Below, piece after piece: positions 3,783 through 61,060 of a stretch of DNA of 64,000 bases. The stretch is from Aliikangiella coralliicola (lineage in GTDB: Bacteria > Pseudomonadota > Gammaproteobacteria > Enterobacterales > Kangiellaceae): positions 1 through 64,000 of the forward strand of contig NZ_ML660161.1 of NCBI RefSeq assembly GCF_007004725.1. Direction: 5' to 3'. The notes beneath the pieces are model-generated. The model saw nothing but the letters and a program-made list of their open reading frames with translations. It was not told where the DNA came from and ran no database searches. Position numbers and translations under genes: made by a program. Each line of letters begins with the position of its first letter. Position 1 is the stretch's first letter.

Positions 3783-3930
3783 TGGACTCTGTAAATTATT
3801 TTGTGTAACTGACAATTTAAATGTGGTCAATTAAGCGGTCTTCAAGCTCAATCATAAAACGATTTAAGGCCGCCTTCCAATTTCTGATAGACATTGTCCA
3901 TAGTTTCGAAGCTTGCTCCACAATCTTAAG
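3783..3930 (-). mobile_element. IS256-family remnant: inverted-repeat end and transposase C-terminus
   Basis: On the minus strand the in-frame codons 3927-3817 encode IVEQASKLWTMSIRNWKAAL and on to NRFMIELEDRL before a stop, the characteristic C-terminus of IS256-family transposases. Outside the stop, the sequence GACTCTGTAAATTATTTTGT is a typical terminal repeat of this family in gammaproteobacteria. Everything upstream of about residue -37 has been replaced by the tandem repeat at 3931, so the element is dead. Confidence 0.75.
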
Positions 3931-4987
3931 AAAAAATAAGTAGACACTCTACTTATAGTGGCTAATTTGGGAAAAAGAGGGCCTAACTAGTAGAATGAGA
4001 GGGATATAAAAATCAAATTTAGCGTGTTTTTTTAGTCAGCTGGTCAGTTTTTTTGGTTAAGTTTATCGATATGTTTTAGTATTTAAGATTTTGGCGCAAT
4101 GGAATGCCTTCCTGTAATGGAATTCGAAACAGAATAATGGATGTGGTTAAGTCAGGCTTCAGATGTTGTTGAGTAAAGCAATTTAGCCGCGCTAATGCCT
4201 CGTAAACAACGCAGTTCTAATTGCCTGGCCTTTTCTCGAATTTTGGCGATGGGACCTACGACTCGGTAAAACTGTTTACCATAACTTTCAATCTGTTTGA
4301 GCCAGTGATTTTGTTGTAAGTTGAGTCGGTTTAGTACCGGTGAAATATGAGCTGGAATTGATGTCTTATCGGGATAAATAATCGACTTGCCTGCCCATTC
4401 AACTAATTCGGTATATTCCCTTAAGGTAATACTGAGTTTTCGCTCCCGAAGATGACCGGCCATAGTTTCAATGGCGAATTCTAGTTTTGATTCGTCAGTA
4501 TGTGATTGAATACCATCAAGCCGCTGTTTGATAGAAGTATGGTGAGACTCTTCTAGTTTATCGGTGATTCTGGCTCTGATGGGATTTAAGTCTACATAAG
4601 CCATACAAGATAATACCGCGGCTTCGTCTAATAATGCCTGAGAATGAAATCTTCCCTCCCAGAATCGACCGGTACAAAAATCCTCCTGATTACTGAGTTT
4701 CGCCAGCGGCTCGTTGAGTCGTCGCATAAACCAGGACAAACTTCCTAAGCGCTTACGATATTTTCTCAGTTTTTCAGGACTATCAATAATTATCTGTTTC
4801 TTGATTTCGCGAAGATGCCTATTTTCAGGCCGGTCAAGACGACTGGGATAGACTTGTAACCAACGCTCAGCGACTTCTTCATCAGTCCATCGCTCTGGCT
4901 CTATTGGGTCTAGATACAGCACAATATGATAATGGTTATCCATAATGGCATAGGCATAAATCTCAACCGAGAAGATTTCGCATAAAG
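3931..4987. repeat. Tandem duplication, copy A (1056-bp offset)
   Basis: Sequence from 3931 reappears at 4987/4988 with a constant offset of 1056 bp: TAGACACTCT at 3941 and 4997, transposase stop at 4152 and 5208. The copies differ at scattered sites, so the duplication is not brand new. The unit comprises the 3' flank and all but the first ~52 codons of a transposase gene. The joint lies in AT-rich AAAATAA sequence. Confidence 0.9.
4152..4987 (-). pseudogene. RAYT/IS200-like transposase, 5'-truncated copy
   Basis: Same protein as the neighbour at 5208-6200 but lacking the N-terminal ~52 residues, including the FYHCTNRCVRRAF strand of the Y1/HUH fold. The HUH motif (DNHYHIV) and AYVDLNPIRARI helix, likely to carry the catalytic tyrosine, remain. 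A GTG at 5003 would allow a shortened product beginning in the junction sequence, but without the first strand activity is unlikely. Confidence 0.8.
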
Positions 4988-6043
4988 CAAAATAAATAGA
5001 CACTCTGCTTATAGCGGTTGATTTGGTAAAAAGAGGGCCTAATTAGTAGAATGAGAGGGATATAAAAATCGAATTTGGCGTGTTTTTTTGTCAGCTGTTC
5101 AGTTTTTCGGCTAAGTTTATCGAAGTGTTTTAGTATTTAAGATTTTGGCGCAATGGAATGCCTTCCTGTCATGGAATTCGAAACAGAATAATGGATATGT
5201 GGTTAAGTCAGGCTTCAGATGTTGTCGAGTAAAGCAATTTAGCAGCGCTAATGCCTCGTAAATAACGCAACTTTAACCGTCTGGCTTTTTCTCTGATATT
5301 ATCAATGGTCCCAACAACTCGACAAAACTGTTTGCCGTAGTTTTCGATCTGTTTGAGCCAGTGACTTTGTTGTAGATTAAGTCGCTCTAATACTGGTGCA
5401 ATATGAGCTGGAATTGATGCCTTATCGGGATAAATAATCGACTTGCCCGCCCATTCAACTAATTCGGTATATTCCCTTAAGGTGATACTGAGTTTTCGCT
5501 CCCGAAGATGACCGGCCATAGTTTCAATGGCGAATTCTAGTTTTGATTGGTCAATATGTGATTGAATACCATCAAGCCGCTGTTTGATGGAAGTTTGGTG
5601 AGACTCTTCTAGTTTATCGGTGATTCTGGCTCTGATGGGATTTAAGTCGACATAAGCCATACAAGACAATACCGCGGCTTCGTCTAATAATGCCTGAGAA
5701 TGAAATCTTCCCTCCCAGAATCGGCCTGTGCAATAGTCTTCCTGATTACTGAGTTTCGCCAGTGGCTCATTGAGTCGTCGCATAAACCAGGACAAACTTC
5801 CTAATCGCTTACGATATTTTCTCAGTTTTTCAGGACTATCAATAATTATCTGTTTCTTGATTTCGCGAAGATGCGTATTTTCAGGCCGGTCAAGACGAGA
5901 GGGATAGACTTGTAACCAACGTTCAGCGACTTCCTCATCAGTCCATCGTTCTGGCTCTATTGGGTCTAGATACAACACAATATGATAATGGTTATCCATA
6001 ATGGCATAGGCATAAATCTCAACCGAGAAGATTTCGCATAAGG
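4988..6043. repeat. Tandem duplication, copy B
   Basis: Second unit of the 1056-bp direct repeat. At its right edge the homology stops after CGCATAA and the intact gene continues. Confidence 0.9.
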
Positions 6044-6200
6044 CCAACATTTGCTTTTCTAACCAGGCTTTACGATAGTCGAAACTCCGGCCGGTATCTT
6101 TATCGAAACCGCAGAGGAAAGCGCGTCTGACACAGCGATTGGTACAGTGATAAAATCCGGGCGTTTCGTTATCGACCAGGTTCCTTCTGGCAATGGCCAT
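5208..6200 (-). CDS. REP-associated tyrosine transposase-like protein (Y1/HUH)
   Basis: A 330-residue Y1-type single-strand transposase relative of the RAYT class. Start chosen at 6200 because AAGGAAG precedes that ATG by about 8 bases; an upstream in-frame start (6242) lacks one. Order: GFYHCTNRCVRRAF strand (residues 15-28), HUH metal-binding motif H71-Y-H73 in MDNHYHIVLYL, a basic middle, and AYVDLNPIRARI, which in RAYTs contains the catalytic tyrosine. The family is usually single-copy and domesticated, acting on REP palindromes; here it lies in tandem with a truncated copy. No obvious REP hairpin array flanks it. Confidence 0.85.
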   Translation of the reverse strand: MAIARRNLVDNETPGFYHCTNRCVRRAFLCGFDKDTGRSFDYRKAWLEKQMLALCEIFSVEIYAYAIMDNHYHIVLYLDPIEPERWTDEEVAERWLQVYPSRLDRPENTHLREIKKQIIIDSPEKLRKYRKRLGSLSWFMRRLNEPLAKLSNQEDYCTGRFWEGRFHSQALLDEAAVLSCMAYVDLNPIRARITDKLEESHQTSIKQRLDGIQSHIDQSKLEFAIETMAGHLRERKLSITLREYTELVEWAGKSIIYPDKASIPAHIAPVLERLNLQQSHWLKQIENYGKQFCRVVGTIDNIREKARRLKLRYLRGISAAKLLYSTTSEA

Positions 6201-6375
6201 AATTTTCTTCCTTGAATGATTAGGCAAATATTTTGGGATCAAAGCTCGAATGTTTCAATGCCCACAAGCTGATAGAGTTATCAGTGAAAGACAATTTCGA
6301 TTGTGAGAGAATGACGATGACTCTAGTGTCTGATAAATATCGAAATCATATACAAAGCAAATCAGGAGCGAAGGA

Positions 6376-7071
6376 ATGAAGTGTTTTTTAACGATGTCTT
6401 TAATATTAATTTTTTGTGGAAGCGCTCAAGGAGAGGTTGGCCACGAAATTGTTGTTACTGGTTCGAGACTCAGTAGCGGTGATTACTACGATATGCCAGC
6501 AGTTACCATCAAAAGAAAGGCTGATTTTTTAGTTCAACGTATTCGGTTAATAAACGATAGTAGATCTCCAAAGCTGAGAAAGAAGGAAATCATAAAGACT
6601 ATAGATAACTTGTTGAAGGCTTCTAGAAAAAATGATGATATCGAACTTTCTTATGGCGAAGGCTTTCTGGTACCCGTTAATTTAAACGATGATTCGCTTC
6701 AGTTAATAGAAGATCATAAGCGATCTGATACTAGCTATGTAAATATTTATGTCAAAGTAGTATTAGATGAAAGCCGCTCCTCAAAACAACAAATCTCAGA
6801 GTTGCGATCATTTATTGCCGATGCGAAGTTGATTAGTCGTACAGAAATAGAGTATTTAGGTGATATTGGTTTAAGCATTGTCAGTCCTGAACAATATCGG
6901 TACGAAATACTTAAAAAGATCTCTGCGGAGAACGATAAAATAAAAAAGCTTGTTGGTGGTGATTGCACGATAAAAATTGGAGGACTTGAAGGTCGCGTAG
7001 AGTGGGAGCGCTCAGATGTAGCAGAGCTAACTTTGTATATCGCTTATGCGACCGAAGTTTCGTGTAGTTAG
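6376..7071 (+). CDS. Secreted protein of unknown function
   Basis: A 231-residue protein with a signal peptide (cleavage near GSAQG-EVG) and GGAGCGAAGG ribosome-site sequence before the ATG. The mature start EIVVTGSR resembles the TonB-dependent receptor plug beginning, but no plug or barrel follows. The rest is mixed alpha/beta with a long charged helix (KLRKKEIIKTIDNLLKASRK) and a pair of cysteines near the end (GGDCTIK, EVSCS) that could form a disulfide. I do not recognise a domain. It stands alone, divergent from the transposase and convergent with the cytochrome gene. Periplasmic location is inferred from the signal. Confidence 0.7.
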   Translation: MKCFLTMSLILIFCGSAQGEVGHEIVVTGSRLSSGDYYDMPAVTIKRKADFLVQRIRLINDSRSPKLRKKEIIKTIDNLLKASRKNDDIELSYGEGFLVPVNLNDDSLQLIEDHKRSDTSYVNIYVKVVLDESRSSKQQISELRSFIADAKLISRTEIEYLGDIGLSIVSPEQYRYEILKKISAENDKIKKLVGGDCTIKIGGLEGRVEWERSDVAELTLYIAYATEVSCS

Positions 7072-7240
7072 TCTAGCAGTTCAGATTGGTATTCATATCT
7101 AGTAAACAAATAACAGGTTAGGTCGCGTTTTTAATAATTAAGCTCAAACTTTTTTCTGAAATCGTCGGCCAGACACATTTTTCTACGAAGTTATAAAGTG
7201 CTCATGGTGCGTTTGCCAATATACACTTTGGAGCAAGGGG

Positions 7241-7266
7241 GAGACTGTAAATAATAATGTGTAACT
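7241..7266. mobile_element. Possible solo IS256-type terminal repeat
   Basis: GAGACTGTAAATAATAATGT followed by GTAAC is close to the end of the IS256 remnant at 3785 (CTGTAAATTATTTTGTGTAAC). No transposase codons are recognisable beside it. It may be the leftover of a second insertion or chance similarity in AT-rich DNA. Confidence 0.3.
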
Positions 7267-7339
7267 ATACCCTATCAATATGGTGAAAATGCCAAAGAGC
7301 TTTCTTCATCTACCAACCCTGATGGTTTTCAACCAACAA

Positions 7340-8116
7340 CTACTTCTGGCCGCCAGGAGTTTTTGCCAAACTATCAATTCGCTTTTTTATAAATACTGCT
7401 TTAGGATTAAGCTGAAGCGCCTTCTCATAAGCTTCACGGGCTTTGGCATTATTTCCTTTTGCTTGATAGGCTGCACCCAATGAAAAAAATCCGAAATATG
7501 AATCAGGAAAGTACTGGCTGTTGGCTTCAAGTAATTTCACCGCGTCGTCATGACTTTGTGGTTGGCTTAACTGAGATTGAGCAAACATTGGCAATACATT
7601 CTCGCTAAAATCAAAAGTATGACCGCCATAGTATTTCTTGCGAAGTTCCGCATAGGAATTAATTACACCGGAAATTCCTTTTTCAGCGAATTGCTCTGAA
7701 AGCACATCTTGAATCAGTCGTGGCTTTTGTTGTCCTCGATGACAAGTCACACAGCGAATTTCAACTCGGTCAGCTGCAGCTATTTGATCAAGCTTTCGAA
7801 CTTCTACTTCATTAAGCTGCTTAACCATTTTTAACATGATCCGGGCTTTCTTTTTTAGAGCTTTGTCATCGGCGGCGAAATCGTATGTTTGCAATGGTTT
7901 GTTGGCTTCGCCAACATGGCAGTGGTGACAACGTAACCCGAGGCCAAGGGTTATCGACTTCATTTTTTCGGCTAATTGTTCTGGTTTTATATCTTTGGGT
8001 AAAACTTTTAAATTCTTGGGAGAAGAAAAAATACTTTTTCTTTCTGCCGCAAAATTGTTCTCAATTAGTAGTGACAAAAAAATAAACAGACATACAAAAA
8101 CGGTTTTAAGTTGCAT
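7340..8116 (-). CDS. Photosynthetic reaction-centre-type cytochrome c with TPR tail
   Basis: A 258-residue periplasmic protein with an N-terminal signal peptide and a perfect AGGAGG ribosome site. Two haem-c motifs are seen, CHHCH near residue 57 and CVTCH near residue 117, spaced as in the CytoC_RC family (the reaction-centre cytochrome subunit fold), which also occurs in non-phototrophs with unknown electron partners. The usual subunit has four haems; here only two are present. The last ~70 residues contain a TPR (FGFFSLGAAYQAKGNNAKAR), suggesting docking to another protein. Divergent from the two-component system next door. A role in periplasmic electron transfer is inferred. Confidence 0.8.
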   Translation of the reverse strand: MQLKTVFVCLFIFLSLLIENNFAAERKSIFSSPKNLKVLPKDIKPEQLAEKMKSITLGLGLRCHHCHVGEANKPLQTYDFAADDKALKKKARIMLKMVKQLNEVEVRKLDQIAAADRVEIRCVTCHRGQQKPRLIQDVLSEQFAEKGISGVINSYAELRKKYYGGHTFDFSENVLPMFAQSQLSQPQSHDDAVKLLEANSQYFPDSYFGFFSLGAAYQAKGNNAKAREAYEKALQLNPKAVFIKKRIDSLAKTPGGQK

Positions 8117-8276
8117 GAACCAGCCTCCTGTCGCGTAAATTAGGCTCCCCTATTCTGCTTTACTTTAATAGAAACAGCTTCTTTGAGGTTGGAGGTTTGG
8201 TTAAAGTATTGTCAGGAAACTGTCAAGATTTGCTTGTAGAACAACATCATTTGTTGGATTTCGGCTATTATAAAGG

Positions 8277-9908
8277 ATGGCTCAGAAGGTATTCAGAATG
8301 AATCAAAAGACACCTGCCAATTCACATCAATCTAAAATACTACGTGTTTTATTGGTCGTGAATTTTTTATTAATGGTAACGCTGGGTTGGCAAGCCCTTA
8401 CTGCTATTTTACAGCAGCGAAACCTGGTGGGGAAAATGCTCCACGAATATGCTGAACTGGCAGCAGAAGAGTTTTCGCGCAGGATTATGGCGGATGTCGG
8501 TTACAAAGGCTATTTTTCTCAAATGAATCTATGGCGAGATTCGGTTGAACTGGTTACTTCAAATAAAGATGAAATCGCTCGGTGTCCTTTAACGTCACAC
8601 CCTTTATTATCGAGTGCCTCTCTAGGAAAAAAGTTTTTCTTAGTTGAAAACAATGAACTAGTCGTTATCTCAACGCTCTGCAATAAAGTTGAGTTCGCCC
8701 CCGCTATTGCTGATAAGCTAGTAAATTTTAACCGAAACGAACTCGCCGAAAAGCCGTTTGCCTTTATCCATACTAATTATTCAGGTACGCCGGTAACATT
8801 AATTGTCACTCAGTTTAAAGAGAAAAACTTACTGGGCTTCCAGGTCAACCGTGAAAGCTTAAGACGACTGTTACAATCATCTTTCGATAAATCTTCATTG
8901 CTCCCGGAAGTTATAGCCAATGGCAAGGCAACCAACTCCATAATTCTTTTATCGATGGTTGACCACACTGGGGACCTTCTTATCGGCGAAAAGATTAATC
9001 ACAATTATGATGTGGCTACCAAAATACTCGCAGATGAATATAGCGGAATTTTTCGAAATCATCAGATCCGTGTCGCAATTAAAACTGACAATATAGAGGA
9101 ACTGATTATTGGCGGCCAACCTGAGGATAATTTGCCAGTTATTTTAGCGACTATGATCATTTTAATCGTGATCTTTATCGTTACTTTTATTCAATTACGT
9201 AAAGAACAACAACTAAGCCGTTTAAGAGAAAGGTTTGTTGCTGAAGTCTCACACGAGCTAAGGACACCTTTAACTCAAATCAGAATGTTTGCTGAAACTC
9301 TGATAAAGGGGCGGGCAAGAAATGAGGAGGAATCGCAACACTATCTTCAAGTTATTAATCGCGAATCAATCCGGTTGAATCATCTCGTTGAAAACATTTT
9401 AAGATATTCCAGCAGCGAAAATACTGGTGAGCTGAAACTAACCCAATTAGCAATAGTGCCTTTTCTTAATACAATTATTGAGGAAATCAATCCAATTCGA
9501 ATCGCTAAAAATGTTGCAGTTAAATGTGATCTAGAATCTTGCGAAATTGCAATACATAAAGATAACTTTCGCAGGATTATTTTGAATCTGCTGGACAATG
9601 CCATCAAATATGGGCCAGACCGGCAAACGATCGAAATAAAAGGACAGATAATTCAGCGTTCGGGTAAAAGAACCTATCGATTAACAATCAATGATGAAGG
9701 GCCGGGCATTCCTTCGAAGTATCATACCAACATCTGGCAAGCTTATTACCGGCTGCCTCGTGAAAGTAATCAGGCGATCGCGGGGACTGGAATAGGTCTA
9801 TATTTGGTAAAGCGATTAGTCACCGAAATTAACGGGTCTATCAAGCTTAAAAATCGAGAACCTAATGGATGTTCTTTTCTGTTGGAACTCAACCTGGATA
9901 ATTCATAA
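8277..9908 (+). CDS. Sensor histidine kinase
   Basis: A 543-residue membrane kinase. TM1 lies at about residues 21-43, then a ~240-residue periplasmic sensor of no recognised type, TM2 at about 283-307, directly followed by the dimerisation domain without an evident HAMP domain. The phospho-acceptor His is in EVSHELRTPLTQ (about residue 326); N, G1 and G2 boxes are DNAIKYG, DEGPGIP and GTGIGLYLV. The response regulator follows 4 bp downstream, so the pair is one operon. The ATG at 8277 has GG-rich sequence before it; a second ATG at 8298 is also possible. The signal is unknown; the divergent cytochrome gene might be a target. Confidence 0.9.
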   Translation: MAQKVFRMNQKTPANSHQSKILRVLLVVNFLLMVTLGWQALTAILQQRNLVGKMLHEYAELAAEEFSRRIMADVGYKGYFSQMNLWRDSVELVTSNKDEIARCPLTSHPLLSSASLGKKFFLVENNELVVISTLCNKVEFAPAIADKLVNFNRNELAEKPFAFIHTNYSGTPVTLIVTQFKEKNLLGFQVNRESLRRLLQSSFDKSSLLPEVIANGKATNSIILLSMVDHTGDLLIGEKINHNYDVATKILADEYSGIFRNHQIRVAIKTDNIEELIIGGQPEDNLPVILATMIILIVIFIVTFIQLRKEQQLSRLRERFVAEVSHELRTPLTQIRMFAETLIKGRARNEEESQHYLQVINRESIRLNHLVENILRYSSSENTGELKLTQLAIVPFLNTIIEEINPIRIAKNVAVKCDLESCEIAIHKDNFRRIILNLLDNAIKYGPDRQTIEIKGQIIQRSGKRTYRLTINDEGPGIPSKYHTNIWQAYYRLPRESNQAIAGTGIGLYLVKRLVTEINGSIKLKNREPNGCSFLLELNLDNS

Positions 9909-52885: not shown

Positions 52886-53608
52886 ATGATGAGTGAAGAA
52901 ACGCAAAAAATCCTGGTAGTCGACGATGACTTGCGTTTACGCAGTTTATTGGAGAGGTATTTCAAGGAACAAGGCTACATTGTAAAAGCCGCTGCAGACT
53001 CTGAACAAATGGATAGGTTTCTTGAACGTGAAAACTATCATCTTATGGTGCTTGATTTAATGTTGCCTGGCGAAGACGGTTTATCCATATGCCGCCGTCT
53101 GCGAGCTGAAGATAATAGTATCCCTATCATTATGTTGACAGCCAAAGGTGACGATGTTGATCGAATCATCGGTCTTGAACTTGGTGCGGATGATTATCTT
53201 GCCAAACCTTTTAATCCCCGCGAATTATTAGCGCGAGTTAAGGCGGTGTTGAGAAGGCGAACTGCGGAACTGCCAGGGGCGCCAAGCGGTGAAGAAAAAG
53301 TGATTGAGTTCGGCGAATTTAAGCTAAACTTGGCGACCCGCGAAATGACACGAAATGGCGAACCCATGACCTTAACCAGCGGTGAATTTGCGGTATTAAA
53401 GTCGCTGGTGACTAACCCACGTCAACCACTCTCACGAGATAAATTAATGAACCTTGCGCGAGGGCGTGATTATAGTGCGCTAGAAAGAAGCATTGATGTC
53501 CAGGTATCACGGTTACGCAGAATGATAGAGGAAGACCCGGCAAAACCGCGTTATTTACAAACGGTGTGGGGGATTGGCTACGTTTTTGTTCCTGATAGTG
53601 AAGACTAA
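52886..53608 (+). CDS. ompR: OmpR response regulator
   Basis: 240 residues (or 239 from the next ATG). Receiver with DDD 13-15, phospho-acceptor Asp57 in MVLDLMLPGEDG and LAKPFNPRELLARVKAVLRR; winged helix with TSGEFAVLKSL and SIDVQVSRLRRMIEEDP, closely OmpR-like. In most relatives envZ follows immediately; here the next gene is on the other strand and unrelated. The cognate kinase must lie elsewhere or be lost. Confidence 0.9.
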   Translation: MMSEETQKILVVDDDLRLRSLLERYFKEQGYIVKAAADSEQMDRFLERENYHLMVLDLMLPGEDGLSICRRLRAEDNSIPIIMLTAKGDDVDRIIGLELGADDYLAKPFNPRELLARVKAVLRRRTAELPGAPSGEEKVIEFGEFKLNLATREMTRNGEPMTLTSGEFAVLKSLVTNPRQPLSRDKLMNLARGRDYSALERSIDVQVSRLRRMIEEDPAKPRYLQTVWGIGYVFVPDSED

Positions 53609-55833: not shown

Positions 55834-56511
55834 ATGATCCGTGTCAGGGGTATATCGAAAACTTACCAAATGGGGAATACGCTGGTTAAAGCGCTGGATG
55901 GCGTTGATTTGCATATCCCTCAAAACGAGTTTGTCGCGATAATGGGGCCGTCAGGTTCAGGTAAGTCAACATTAATGAATATTCTTGGGTGTCTTGATCA
56001 ACCCGATAATGGGAGTTATCAGCTCGCCGGAGAAGAAGTTGCCAGTATTGATGATGATCAGCTCGCATCGCTACGCAATCGTTCTATCGGATTCGTATTT
56101 CAAACCTTCAACTTGCAAGCCCGTCGTACCGCATTAGAAAATGTTATGTTGCCGCTTAGATTTTCAAATTGTCCAAAAGTCGAAGCGAGAGAAAGGGCAA
56201 CGCAAATTCTTTCGAAGGTTGGCCTGGCGGAAAGAGCGCATCACCGACCATCAGAACTTTCAGGCGGACAACGACAACGGGTCGCGATAGCGCGAGCGCT
56301 GATCAACCAGCCTGAAATTATTCTGGCTGATGAACCCACAGGTAATCTGGACAGTAAAACCACAGAAGAAATCATGAACCTGTTTCATCATTTACATCAG
56401 CAGGGGCAAACGATAGTCGTTGTTACTCATGAAGATGAAATTGCTCAACATGCGCAAAGAGTCGTTACATTGAGAGATGGAAAAATCAAGGAGGACAAAT
56501 TCAATGATTAA
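55834..56511 (+). CDS. ABC exporter ATPase (MacB/LolD type)
   Basis: 225 residues. Walker [10 protein letters not shown] (about 38-46), Q-loop FVFQTFNL, signature [15 protein letters not shown], Walker [13 protein letters not shown], switch VVVTHED. Closest in style to the MacB and LolD exporters (FtsX-type permease partner). First gene of a five-gene operon; overlaps the following adaptor by 8 bp. Confidence 0.93.
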
Positions 56512-57538
56512 ACATTTGGCTATCATTATTCCGCTAATGTTTTCCACAGTTGTTGATGCAGAAAGTGATTCAGCTGATAGCGTCATTCTGACCGGCAAAA
56601 TCAAAGCCGGTGATGTACAGAACTTTACGACTCCCTGGTCGGAAAACTGGCGATTGCAGATTAAATGGATGAAGCCGGAAGGTCAGATGGTTGAGCAAGG
56701 AGATTTGGTTGTACTGTTTGATACTGCAAGTTTAGACACCCAGATTGAGCAACAGAAAGTGAGCTTGCGGCAAGCGCAAGAAAAAGCCAAAGAAAGTCGG
56801 CTTAGACTGGAACAGGAAGTCATCGATGCTGAGCATGCTTTAGTGAAAGCTCAATTAGAATTTCAACTAGCCAAGTTATCTGTCAATGTACCGACAAAAT
56901 TTCGCAGTGATTTTGAAAAAGATAATATCGGGTTTGATTTTAAAAAAGCGAACAAAATGTTGGAGCAAGCAAAAACCAAATTGAAAACGGCTCAAGCTGC
57001 ATTGGTAGCTGAAGAGAAAAAGCAGGTGTTAGAAATAAAAAGAATTGGGGCAATTCTAAAGAAAAAAGAATCGGAGTTGGCGTTTATGCAGTTAAAGGCG
57101 CTAAGAAAAGGAACCGTATTACATGCGATGCATCCCTGGAATGGGAGTAAAATTACTGAAGGTCAATCAGTACAAACTTCGTGGAATGTTGCTTCAATTC
57201 CCGGTGCTGGGGATGAGTCGGTACGAGCATGGGTGAATGAAGTTGACTGGCACAAAATTGGCGTAGGCCAGATAGTTACATTGACGTTAGATGCATTTCC
57301 CAATGACCATTTTAAAGGAAAAATTCGAAAAGTTGGCCAGCAGGCGGAATCTAAAAAAGAATGGGGCAGTGCGACCTATTACGATGTCGATATTGAAATC
57401 ACAGAGCCTTCCAAGCATTCCCTTGTGCCAGGTATGAGCGTGAGAGTTGAAATACCAGAAAACGGCGTCGGCGCTGAGAATAATTCGATTACCGAAAACT
57501 CTTCAGCAGAAAAAAATATGACAACGGAGGCTGGCTAG
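56504..57538 (+). CDS. Membrane fusion protein 1 (HlyD-type adaptor)
   Basis: 344 residues from the ATG at 56504 (AGGAGG before it). Signal peptide without lipobox (MFSTVVDA). Barrel-sandwich strand [20 protein letters not shown], a long coiled coil about residues 75-185, then ALRKGTVLH and beta-barrel [20 protein letters not shown]. Ends with an asparagine/glutamate-rich tail. One of three adaptors made together, presumably periplasmic. Confidence 0.85.
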
Positions 57539-57539
57539 T

Positions 57540-58562
57540 ATGTTAAGAATAACTTTGTTGGTGGGTGCTCTGTTGTTGGTCTCTGGTTGTGAGCAGCAAG
57601 ACTCCAGTATAAATAGTCAAACACAACTTAAGGTGTCGGGCATCGTTGAAGCTAACGGCGAACTGGCTTCAAGTGATACTGCCGTCGTGAGTCCGCCAGC
57701 CGTACGAAATCAATGGCGATATAAAATTACTTTTCTAGCTGCCGAAGGAAGCCAGGTCAATAAAGGAAAGCCAATTGTCAGTTTCGACGTAAGCGAGCTT
57801 AATCAGAAACTATCGATGAAAAAAAGTGAGTTAAAAACAGCACAAAAAACATTGGAAAATACGTTGTTGACGAACGAAGCTAAACTGGAAAAACAAAATC
57901 TGGAACTCGCAGAATCCAAAATGAAGCAGGATAAAGCCTATCGAAAGTGGCAGCAATCTAAAAATCTGGAAAGTAATCTGGAGACTAAAAAACTAAATCT
58001 TCAATTTAAAATCGCAGAAAATGAAACCCAACGATTAGAGAAGACTGTCGCCAAGACGATTGAATCAAACAAGGTTAAATTAGCCATTTCGAAAAGTAAT
58101 AATGAACGGCTTCAAAGTGAAGTAGATCAATTGAAGTCGGGCATTGGCAAAATGACGATTAAAGCGCCTAAATCAGGCATTATCATTTACAAACCGGACT
58201 ATCAGGGAAAGAAAATTTCGATGGGAGATACTGTGTGGATGGGGAGACAAATTATTGGTTTACCGTCACTCGATCAGATGATAGTAAAAGCGAAAATCCT
58301 CGAAGCAGATGCCGGTAGCGTAAAGTTAGCACAGAAAGTGGAAGTCGTGTTAGATGCCGTGCCTGAAAGGGTTTTTATTGGCAAAGTGACTAAACTCGGG
58401 AAAGTTTTTCGGCGCAAAAGTAAAGATCAGCCAAATATTATTTTTGATGCAGAAATTACTTTGGAGAATCCTGACATCGATTTGATGCGGCCGGGTATGG
58501 CTGCAAGAATAAAAATACATGTTGATGACGCGCAGCAATCATCAGCATTGGCGTTGCAGTAG
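57540..58562 (+). CDS. Membrane fusion protein 2 (adaptor lipoprotein)
   Basis: 340 residues, lipobox VSGC. Start 1 bp after the previous stop, translationally coupled. Lipoyl-like strand YKITFLAAEGSQVNKGKPIV, coiled coil about 85-195, APKSGIIIY and beta-barrel QKVEVVLDAVPERVFIGKV. Same domain order as adaptor 1 but clearly diverged. Confidence 0.85.
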   Translation: MLRITLLVGALLLVSGCEQQDSSINSQTQLKVSGIVEANGELASSDTAVVSPPAVRNQWRYKITFLAAEGSQVNKGKPIVSFDVSELNQKLSMKKSELKTAQKTLENTLLTNEAKLEKQNLELAESKMKQDKAYRKWQQSKNLESNLETKKLNLQFKIAENETQRLEKTVAKTIESNKVKLAISKSNNERLQSEVDQLKSGIGKMTIKAPKSGIIIYKPDYQGKKISMGDTVWMGRQIIGLPSLDQMIVKAKILEADAGSVKLAQKVEVVLDAVPERVFIGKVTKLGKVFRRKSKDQPNIIFDAEITLENPDIDLMRPGMAARIKIHVDDAQQSSALALQ

Positions 58563-58572
58563 GTGGTAGAGA

Positions 58573-59838
58573 ATGAACGATATAAATAAAGGAACAGTCG
58601 GCAGGTTAAAATACACTTTCGCATCCTTGACGCTTTCCAGTGTATTAACTTTGTCTGGATGTGCTGAAAACTCGAGTGCTGATACGATTAAGATGGTTGT
58701 GGCAAAGGCTGATTTTATCGTAAAAATTCCCGGTTCTGGAGAGTTAGAAGCGGCAAAAGCAACCAATATCAGTATGCCCGGTGGCGTGTTTGAAGCTCAG
58801 GTTATCGAATGGCTTGCGGAGGAAAATACACTGGTTAAGAAAGGACAGGTTGTTGCCCGTTTTGATCCGAAAAAATATAGGCATCAAAGCGAGCAAGAAC
58901 AATTTCAAATCGATAAAGCCAATATTGGCTATCAAACAAAAGAAAACCAACTCGGTAACGAAAAGCGAGAAATCTCTAATGATGCGCAACTAATTAAAGA
59001 CGAGCTTAATATTGCTAACCGGTACTCTGTTGATGATTTAAGAGTTTATTCGCGTAACGAAATTATCGACCAAATGAAAAATCAAGCCTACCTGGAAGCG
59101 AAGCAAGGTTATACCGAATGGCGTGGCGAGAGTCATGACGACAAATCACAATCTGAACTTGAGTTGTTACGACTGAAGCAAGGTCAGCATTCTGCAAAAT
59201 TAGGCATGTATCAAGACGCGTTAACAAAATTGGAAATCACTGCACCACATGATGGACTTTTTGTTTTAGAAAAAAACTGGCGTGGAGAAAAGCCGCGTGT
59301 TGGTGACACTACCTGGCCAGGTAGAAAATTAGGATCGCTGCCTGATTTATCAAAATTACAGGCGAGAATCTTCATTCTTGAATCGGAAGCCGCGGGACTG
59401 AAAGTTGGACAAAGAGTGGAACTAAAGTTAGACGCATATCCCGATCAGCTTATTGAAGGAAAACTGGCGCAAATTGATAGTATTGCTAAATCTCGAAATA
59501 ATAAAAACCCTGTCAAATATTTTGAAGCGGTCGTTAGTATCGATGGTGAAAAACTGGAACATTGGCGACCAGGTAGCCAGTTGAAAGCGATAGTCTTCGC
59601 TGCTGAAAAGCGTCAGGTGATTAGTATTCCTTCACAAAGTATTTCAGTCAAAAATGGTCAGTATTTTGTGTATGTAGAAGAATCTGGAGATTGGGTTAAG
59701 CGGGAAATTCAAATTGGATCTCGTAACACTGCTAAAACAGAAATAACTCAAGGATTAGAGTCAGGTGATATAGTCGCGTTGTTTACGCCGCAATCTGTCG
59801 TACAGCAAAATACGGGAGGCAATCATGGCGTTCTTTGA
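58573..59838 (+). CDS. Membrane fusion protein 3 (adaptor lipoprotein)
   Basis: 421 residues, lipobox LSGC. Lipoyl strand AQVIEWLAEENTLVKKGQVV, helical hairpin about 100-215, TAPHDGLFVLEKNWRGEKPR, beta-barrel QRVELKLDAYPDQLIEGKL and a full membrane-proximal domain (RQVISIPSQSISVKNGQYFV) that the two shorter adaptors lack. Overlaps the permease start by 14 bp. Confidence 0.85.
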   Translation: MNDINKGTVGRLKYTFASLTLSSVLTLSGCAENSSADTIKMVVAKADFIVKIPGSGELEAAKATNISMPGGVFEAQVIEWLAEENTLVKKGQVVARFDPKKYRHQSEQEQFQIDKANIGYQTKENQLGNEKREISNDAQLIKDELNIANRYSVDDLRVYSRNEIIDQMKNQAYLEAKQGYTEWRGESHDDKSQSELELLRLKQGQHSAKLGMYQDALTKLEITAPHDGLFVLEKNWRGEKPRVGDTTWPGRKLGSLPDLSKLQARIFILESEAAGLKVGQRVELKLDAYPDQLIEGKLAQIDSIAKSRNNKNPVKYFEAVVSIDGEKLEHWRPGSQLKAIVFAAEKRQVISIPSQSISVKNGQYFVYVEESGDWVKREIQIGSRNTAKTEITQGLESGDIVALFTPQSVVQQNTGGNHGVL

Positions 59839-61060
59839 TGCACTAAGAGATGCTTGGGAAGAACTTTGGCATCATAAGATGCGTACCGCATTGACGTTGC
59901 TTGGAATGATTTTTGGCGTCGGTGCGGTAATTGCCATGCTAAGTATCGGTGAAGGCGCCGAACAGGAAGCACTGGAATTGATCGACTCTATGGGACTGCG
60001 AAATGTAATCGTCAATGCTAAGAAAATGGACTCGCAACAGCTCGCAGAAATTCGCGATCATTCTGTCGGTCTCTCGCAAAGAGATGTTGAGGTGGCTAGC
60101 GAAACTCTACCTTTTGTGGAACAGGCTAGTGCGGAAAAAGTGATTAAGACATTTATTGTTTTCAGTCATGGTGTTAAAAGCGACGCATCTGTTTATGGTG
60201 TTACCCCGAGTTATTTTGAATTGAGTGGATTTAATGTTAGCGCCGGAAGGCTCTTTGACGTTGATGGTGAAGCAAGATATCGACAGGTGGCGGTGTTAGG
60301 AGCGCACACGGCAAAAGTATTGTTTGCGGATAAAGACCCTCTTGGGCAATTGGTTAAAGTCAATCATGTGTGGTTACGTGTCATTGGGGTATTAAAAGAT
60401 AAGTCACTTAACAAAGACGAATTTGAAGGGATCAAATTAGGCGGAGAGAAAAACAGAATATTTGTTCCGTTAAAAACCGCGCTGAAAAAGTTTCGCTTTC
60501 CCGACCTCGACAATGAAATTGATACTTTCAGAATAAAAATTACCAAAGATACCGATCCGAACATGGCGGCAATTGCTCTTAATCATTTGCTTAGCCAACG
60601 TCACGGCAAAGTGGATGACTATGAAATTGTGGTACCGGCAAAATTAATGGAACAGCATCGGCAAACTCGTCGCATCTTTACCATTGTGATGTCTTGTGTT
60701 GCGGGGATTTCATTGTTAGTCGGCGGTATTGGTATTATGAATATTATGTTAGCGACCGTGTTGGAGCGGACTAAAGAAATTGGTTTGCTGCGGGCCGTTG
60801 GTGCGCGCAAAAAAGATGTGATGAACCTGTTTATGGTCGAAAGTTTTACCGTCGCCGCCATTGGTGGATTATTAGGCATTATTCTGGGTTATATTATTGC
60901 GCAGGTGATCGCGGTTTATGCCGACTGGACTGTTGGTTGGTCGTTATCTGCGATCTTATTATCGGTGGGTGTTTGCGCCATTGTTGGCTTAACTTTTGGT
61001 ATTTATCCTGCGTTAAAAGCATCCAAGATGGATCCCATTGAGGCATTGCAACGGGATTAA
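59825..61060 (+). CDS. MacB-type ABC permease
   Basis: 411 residues: one TM near residue 22-45 (ALTLLGMIFGVGAVIAMLSIGEG), MacB periplasmic core domain to about 280, then three C-terminal TM helices of the FtsX domain (VMSCVAGISLLVGGIGIMNI; VGARKKDV coupling loop). Partner of the ATPase at 55834, which is encoded separately and not fused as in MacB. No TolC gene follows. Confidence 0.92.
   Translation: MAFFDALRDAWEELWHHKMRTALTLLGMIFGVGAVIAMLSIGEGAEQEALELIDSMGLRNVIVNAKKMDSQQLAEIRDHSVGLSQRDVEVASETLPFVEQASAEKVIKTFIVFSHGVKSDASVYGVTPSYFELSGFNVSAGRLFDVDGEARYRQVAVLGAHTAKVLFADKDPLGQLVKVNHVWLRVIGVLKDKSLNKDEFEGIKLGGEKNRIFVPLKTALKKFRFPDLDNEIDTFRIKITKDTDPNMAAIALNHLLSQRHGKVDDYEIVVPAKLMEQHRQTRRIFTIVMSCVAGISLLVGGIGIMNIMLATVLERTKEIGLLRAVGARKKDVMNLFMVESFTVAAIGGLLGIILGYIIAQVIAVYADWTVGWSLSAILLSVGVCAIVGLTFGIYPALKASKMDPIEALQRD

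Follow-up and report, generated by a model that had tools for sequence, protein, structure and literature searches.

A conserved MacAB-type exporter unit encoding three paralogous adaptors in Aliikangiella coralliicola

The MacAB-TolC pump of Escherichia coli and its relatives, which serves in macrolide and peptide efflux, combines a MacB-type permease, bearing a periplasmic core and an FtsX domain, with a single adaptor, MacA, that carries an N-terminal helix (passages of PMC5985334). Two Gram-positive MacAB-like systems, YknWXYZ and Spr0693-0695, also pair an adaptor gene with that of a MacB homologue in one operon, and in YknXYZ the ATPase and permease are separate, but they possess one adaptor and no outer membrane (same passages of PMC5985334). 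The unit described here occupies positions 55834 to 61060 of a 64,000-nucleotide stretch of Aliikangiella coralliicola DNA (contig NZ_ML660161.1, positions 1 to 64,000; the whole stretch is referred to as the window). It consists of five intact genes, all on the + strand, for an ATP-binding cassette (ABC) ATPase, three membrane-fusion proteins (MFP1, MFP2 and MFP3, the adaptors) and a permease. The permease domains and MacA-like adaptors resemble those of MacAB-TolC; the unit differs in that the ATPase has a gene of its own, the adaptor is represented by three paralogues, which bear a lipid anchor or a cleaved signal where MacA has its helix, and the gene order opens with the ATPase and closes with the permease. 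More than one kind of adaptor is found in TriABC-OpmH, a triclosan pump of the resistance-nodulation-division (RND) class with three-fold symmetry, whose pump component is not homologous to the permease described here and whose adaptors, TriA and TriB, number two rather than three and are both required. Reviews give TriABC as a 3:(3+3):3 assembly or as a hetero-oligomeric hexamer with unequal roles, and in their passages on the subject it is the example of a pump with several adaptors (PMC13328181, PMC8277102, PMC4446572, PMC4338810).

The first gene (55834..56511, +) encodes a MacB/LolD/FtsE-type ATP-binding subunit of 225 amino acids (ABC_tran, 9.6e-36), in whose translation the Walker A, LSGGQ and Walker B motifs can be read. 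MFP1 (56504..57538, +; 344 amino acids; HlyD_3, 5.1e-8) has a plain signal peptide, no lipid anchor and no membrane-proximal domain. We place its start at 56504 and not at 56477, the start of a longer open reading frame (ORF), because a GGAGG ribosome-binding site can be read at 56490..56494 (+) and the shorter form opens with a clean signal peptide. MFP2 (57540..58562, +; 340 amino acids; HlyD_D23, 1.2e-12) is a lipoprotein with the lipobox VSGC (Cys17) and, judging by its C-terminal length, the window copy is missing the membrane-proximal domain. MFP3 (58573..59838, +; 421 amino acids; HlyD_D23, 1.5e-11; RND_mfp) is a lipoprotein with the lipobox LSGC (Cys30) and a MacA-like membrane-proximal domain. 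The last gene (59825..61060, +) encodes a MacB/FtsX-type permease of 411 amino acids with a periplasmic core domain (MacB_PCD, 7.5e-36, 124.8 bits; FtsX, 3.3e-21, 76 bits; each above the Pfam cut-off), which matches MacB structures with an E value of 2.6e-56 (phmmer). The ATPase and MFP1 genes overlap by 8 nt and those of MFP3 and the permease by 14 nt; MFP1 is separated from MFP2 by 1 nt and MFP2 from MFP3 by 10 nt. A first-pass annotation, made from the sequence alone, had read the locus as one ATPase and one MacB-type permease with three adaptors, one with a plain signal and two lipoproteins, all translationally coupled or overlapping, and this description is borne out by the Pfam domains, the signals and the junctions.

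With MacB_PCD and FtsX in the permease, and ABC_tran and the nucleotide-binding domain motifs in the ATPase, the two proteins belong to the type VII, MacB-type ABC transporters. HlyD_3 scores above its Pfam cut-off in all three adaptors, and HlyD_D23 in MFP2 and MFP3, with MFP1 slightly below (29.5 against 30 bits). The fold could be examined in MFP1, the one adaptor with a usable structure model, a single chain (AlphaFold2, nine sequences; mean predicted local distance difference test score 79.6). Its hairpin helices span residues 75-128 and 136-195 (54 and 60 residues) and its best match among solved structures is MacA of MacAB-TolC (5nik_D, template modelling score ~0.5). The three proteins are thus members of the HlyD/MacA family of adaptors (membrane-fusion or periplasmic adaptor proteins). 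None of the window proteins reached an NCBIfam equivalog cut-off among the matches listed (for the ATPase, the best 25 of 199). The top models for the ATPase were MacB (264.1 bits), LolD (254 bits, cut-off 307.75) and DarD, all below their cut-offs, and the permease scored 225.6 bits with MacB against 51.3 bits with LolC/E. The unit is therefore not MacAB in the strict sense, the MacB equivalog cut-off being 966 bits, the two genes unfused, and three different adaptor genes taking the place of one adaptor in six identical copies. The adaptors scored near RND/HlyD adaptor models, and MFP3 alone exceeded a curated NCBIfam cut-off (RND_mfp, 104.4 against 94.9 bits). PADLOC returned generic ATPase and FtsX-like matches only, a distant blastn search of 55834-59800 against E. 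coli genomes gave no match, and scans for promoters and terminators yielded site counts no higher than in shuffled sequence.

We searched for the family with the permease profile at E <= 1e-90. Of 394 genomes from the same order, 31 gave a match; matches were also found in one of 274 genomes in a class sample (the window itself), in two of 200 in a phylum sample (the window and one further genome, G829) and in nine of the 61 genomes from the family of G829; within the genus itself, two of seven genomes carry the permease. The nearest titled genome is a Kangiellaceae metagenome-assembled genome. Among plasmid records, two Pseudoalteromonas replicons matched, of which one was read and the other left aside. 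These large searches scored the top few candidates per genome, so that the counts do not prove absence from a single genome. In total 41 loci, chosen by their permease, were read: 31 from the order, nine from the family of G829 and the Pseudoalteromonas replicon, or 40 genomes besides the replicon.

All 41 loci keep the order ATPase-MFP1-MFP2-MFP3-permease in one direction with all three adaptors present, the only incomplete gene noted being an ATPase ORF (32-364 in locus L070) of just 110 amino acids, cut by the start of its contig. The conservation extends to distant copies, in which identity to the window falls to 25-32% for the adaptors and 52% for the permease. Genes were assigned with five profiles built from six of the loci, which leaves the assignment independent in the other 35; among the 105 adaptor proteins of these, the score of each was 1.9-4.3 times higher against its own profile than against the second-ranked one. 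With machine-chosen starts, junctions overlap or are at most 10 nt at MFP1-MFP2 in 41/41 loci, and at MFP2-MFP3 and MFP3-permease in 40/41 each. A reverse search with the MFP2 profile (E <= 1e-50) matched once in each of the 31 genomes with the permease and in no other of the 394; hence MFP2 without the permease was not found among the top candidates per genome scored in this MFP2 search. The first-pass annotation had proposed a survey for the five-gene order and had named adaptors occurring singly in relatives as the observation that would speak against it; none of the 41 family loci read has them singly. The same genes in the same order in every locus make the five-gene unit a conserved system, beyond chance.

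The family is also discrete. Its permeases score at least 580 bits with the profile, whereas in 158 class genomes the top score of a non-family permease is 274 bits. We read the loci of 20 among the best 24 of the 40 outside matches listed at E <= 1e-60, and all 20 have a single adaptor in the operon, as scored with an adaptor profile built in this analysis. Sixteen have the order adaptor-ATPase-permease and four an adaptor followed by a fused ATPase-permease; no two-adaptor intermediate was seen among the 20. One-adaptor operons also occur in the window's own genome and in G019, where the operon (3869-6982 of locus L032) is MacAB-like and follows, in the same orientation, downstream of the three-adaptor one. 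In one of the 20 loci read (L168) a second adaptor-like ORF lies on the opposite strand. Another (5646-8834 of locus L179) has one adaptor, one ATPase and, in tandem, two MacB-type permeases that may form a heterodimer.

The three adaptors of the window are 22-26% identical to one another. A tree was built from 57 family adaptors, which represent 19 loci of the 41, together with 22 controls (20 of the 26 other adaptors in the window's genome and two from further genomes). Each of MFP1, MFP2 and MFP3 is monophyletic in it, with support of 100, 99 and 100 in the Shimodaira-Hasegawa-like approximate likelihood-ratio test (SH-aLRT). The three clades are united against the controls with SH-aLRT 99, in a tree built by a quick method and with long control branches. 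The simplest reading of these sequences is that two duplications took place within the operon and predated the spread of the family. On the permease tree, members of host family f16 fall into distant clades, as do those of f200, which suggests that the whole five-gene unit has been transferred horizontally as a block.

The three adaptors differ in a fixed manner. We called the membrane-proximal domain from the length of the stretch after the beta-barrel, and read signals and lipoboxes by eye or from alignments. MFP3 has 76-88 residues after the barrel in 41/41 loci, so the domain is always present, and MFP1 has 8-44 in 41/41, so the domain is present in none. In MFP2 the stretch is at least 60 residues in 26/41, below 40 in 14/41 and intermediate in one, corresponding to six gains or losses of the domain on the permease tree, at least four of them forced by well-supported branches, while no adaptor was lost. 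In the loci read, the family thus tolerates loss of this domain from MFP2 and not from MFP3. The lipobox cysteine is found in 41/41 aligned rows of MFP2 and in 40 of MFP3, and also in the remaining MFP3 (L088), where it is shifted in the alignment. MFP1 has a plain signal peptide in 37/41 loci, is ambiguous in three (L074, L080 and L082, with a cysteine near the signal end) and unclear in one (L076). The residue at +2 of the lipoproteins was considered as a further indicator, the rule in E. coli being that a lipoprotein lacking Asp there is sent to the outer membrane. MFP2 and MFP3 mostly lack this Asp, but we rejected it as evidence because two other lipoprotein adaptors of the same genome (CSDD and CSDN) lack it as well. 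EmrA serves a pump of the major facilitator superfamily as its single adaptor. Like MFP1, it is without a membrane-proximal domain (abstract of PMC4158417), an example of an adaptor that can do without it. The MFP3 profile is the strongest of the three in matching MacA, aligns nearly to the MacA C-terminus, and pairs G394, a glycine in 41/41 loci, with MacA Gly353, a residue required for stimulation of the MacB ATPase (passages of PMC4338810).

We consider it probable that the unit encodes a MacAB-like tripartite exporter of the type VII, mechanotransmission kind in a Gram-negative host, whose adaptor was triplicated in the operon long ago and whose tube is built jointly by MFP1, MFP2 and MFP3. 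Paralogous subunits of one ring would be expected to be retained together and translated in a coupled manner, to share an origin and to carry different sets of domains, as these adaptors do, and a mixed adaptor ring is likely but unproven. On this model, a single adaptor gene would have been triplicated inside the operon and the copies would then have specialised, with similar amounts of each made from the coupled genes. An ATPase dimer would power a permease dimer, whose periplasmic domains would drive a small or peptide-like substrate into the shared tube. MFP3, lipid-anchored and always with the membrane-proximal domain, would dock on the permease and stimulate its ATPase; MFP2 would be the second anchored subunit; and MFP1, apparently unanchored and never with that domain, would complete the ring and the hairpin barrel. 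At its outer end the tube would meet a TolC-type channel whose gene lies elsewhere. If the cycle is homologous to that of MacAB-TolC, binding of ATP would close the permease dimer and so push the substrate into the adaptor tube (as in passages of PMC5985334 and PMC8062640). The simplest count, two copies of each adaptor, would give a six-membered ring with two-fold symmetry like that of the permease dimer. We suggest only tentatively that this might be an obligate 2:2:2 hetero-hexamer matched to that symmetry, with two MFP3 on the two periplasmic domains and an inner gate formed by a mixed ring and not by six equal glutamines. Of the claims of the first-pass annotation, one pump with three distinct adaptors as a less described system has stood, whereas its hetero-oligomeric tube has only gained in likelihood, through the constant way in which domains and anchors are shared out among the adaptors.

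Several observations weigh against the jointly built tube. Joint retention and coupling fit three adaptors used singly as well, and MacAB-TolC itself needs no symmetry match, placing six identical MacA on a MacB dimer (passages of PMC8062640). Nor was a linked outer-membrane channel found. The five-gene unit contains no TolC-family gene, in agreement with the first-pass annotation, which had found none adjacent; among the matches listed for the carrier genomes, the one nearest to an operon is ~8 kb away (G865) and no other is closer. TolC-family matches are present in 40/40 carrier genomes (the Pseudoalteromonas record was outside this search), and the window's genome has three TolC-family genes (six half-matches) on contigs C6 and C9, the window being on C2. 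By default, a shared channel is to be expected. The window's genome encodes ~29 HlyD-type adaptor proteins (30 HlyD_D23 matches, one protein being hit in two pieces). Finally, the canonical TolC-docking motif RxxxLxxxxxxS/T (spacing from passages of PMC3391258) occurs near the hairpin tip in 0/41 loci for each adaptor (0.7-1.1 in shuffles). This absence is weakly informative because 16 of the 22 control adaptors also lack the motif; just six of the 22 carry it at any position.

The three adaptors might instead be interchangeable, each forming its own six-membered ring on the same permease according to substrate, condition or outer-membrane channel. With so many adaptors and so few TolC-like genes in the genome, sharing of parts is to be expected, and the three hairpin tips do differ, each with its own conserved residues. 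We nevertheless regard interchangeable rings as unlikely, since MFP1 lacks both a membrane-proximal domain and a clear lipid anchor and so is no equivalent of MFP3, and optional modules should sometimes be lost, which no adaptor has been in the 41 loci. An arrangement to which we give equally little weight is that MFP3 alone forms the ring on the permease, with MFP1 and MFP2 as accessories (assembly factors, a collar or a second, tube-lengthening ring). The complete complement of MacA-like domains in MFP3, unique to it in 41/41 loci, its invariant Gly353 equivalent and strongest MacA match, and the repeated loss or gain of the MFP2 domain would all suit such a division. Against this, all three adaptors align over the hairpin, lipoyl halves and beta-barrel, which favours side-by-side packing (as far as the MFP1 model bears on it), and equal coupling suggests similar amounts. 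That the unit is a LolCDE-like machine for lipid or lipoprotein handling in the inner membrane or periplasm, docking on no outer-membrane channel, is very unlikely: the ATPase scores near LolD, no TolC motif is seen at the tips and no linked channel was found, but the permease is far nearer to MacB than to LolC/E, the modelled MFP1 hairpin is long, and to our knowledge LolCDE has no adaptors. LolCDE shares with the unit the type VII ABC permease family and a related ATPase but differs in that its permease is a heterodimer (passages of PMC8277102). Its permease models match only weakly here, as given above.

A residue that may bear on the jointly built tube lies at the inner gate. The MacA constriction loop pairs with MFP2 W233 in the alignment of the MFP2 profile with MacA, and the gate glutamine is presumably MacA Q209. 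At this column MFP1 has Q in 37/41 loci, MFP2 has F, Y, Q or W in 35/41, and MFP3 has W in 33/41 and F in 7/41, HMMER having put the gap elsewhere for MFP3. The mixed gate residues are thus a lead, not a finding. In MacA a constriction is made by the lipoyl loops and their conserved glutamines; erythromycin resistance was unaffected when these were changed to alanine (passages of PMC5985334).

Around the 41 loci, gene clustering found no flanking gene common to several lineages. The largest flanking clusters cover eight and seven of the loci, all from a single host family (f6), which indicates that the five-gene unit stands alone. One of these clusters resembles, by eye, what we take to be an acetyltransferase, which we judge to be lineage-specific. 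In the window, an ORF that by eye encodes an OmpR-type response regulator is located at 52886-53608, 2.2 kb upstream of the operon.

Our literature search turned up no description of a three-adaptor pump, most subscription papers and bioRxiv preprints outside PubMed Central lying beyond its reach. The five-gene unit is a real, conserved variant of the MacAB type, undescribed in the literature searched. Should the 2:2:2 arrangement hold, we know of no earlier pump that uses adaptors of three kinds in a ring matched to the symmetry of its transporter. The unit bears on why transporters of two- or three-fold symmetry use six adaptors, and on whether the six act alike; the need for asymmetry in such complexes is called unclear in a review (passages of PMC4338810). 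Three ancient, jointly kept paralogues would allow each ring position to be separately labelled, changed or deleted, which is impossible with six copies of one gene. The five-gene unit adds a discrete family of export systems to those of the Gammaproteobacteria.

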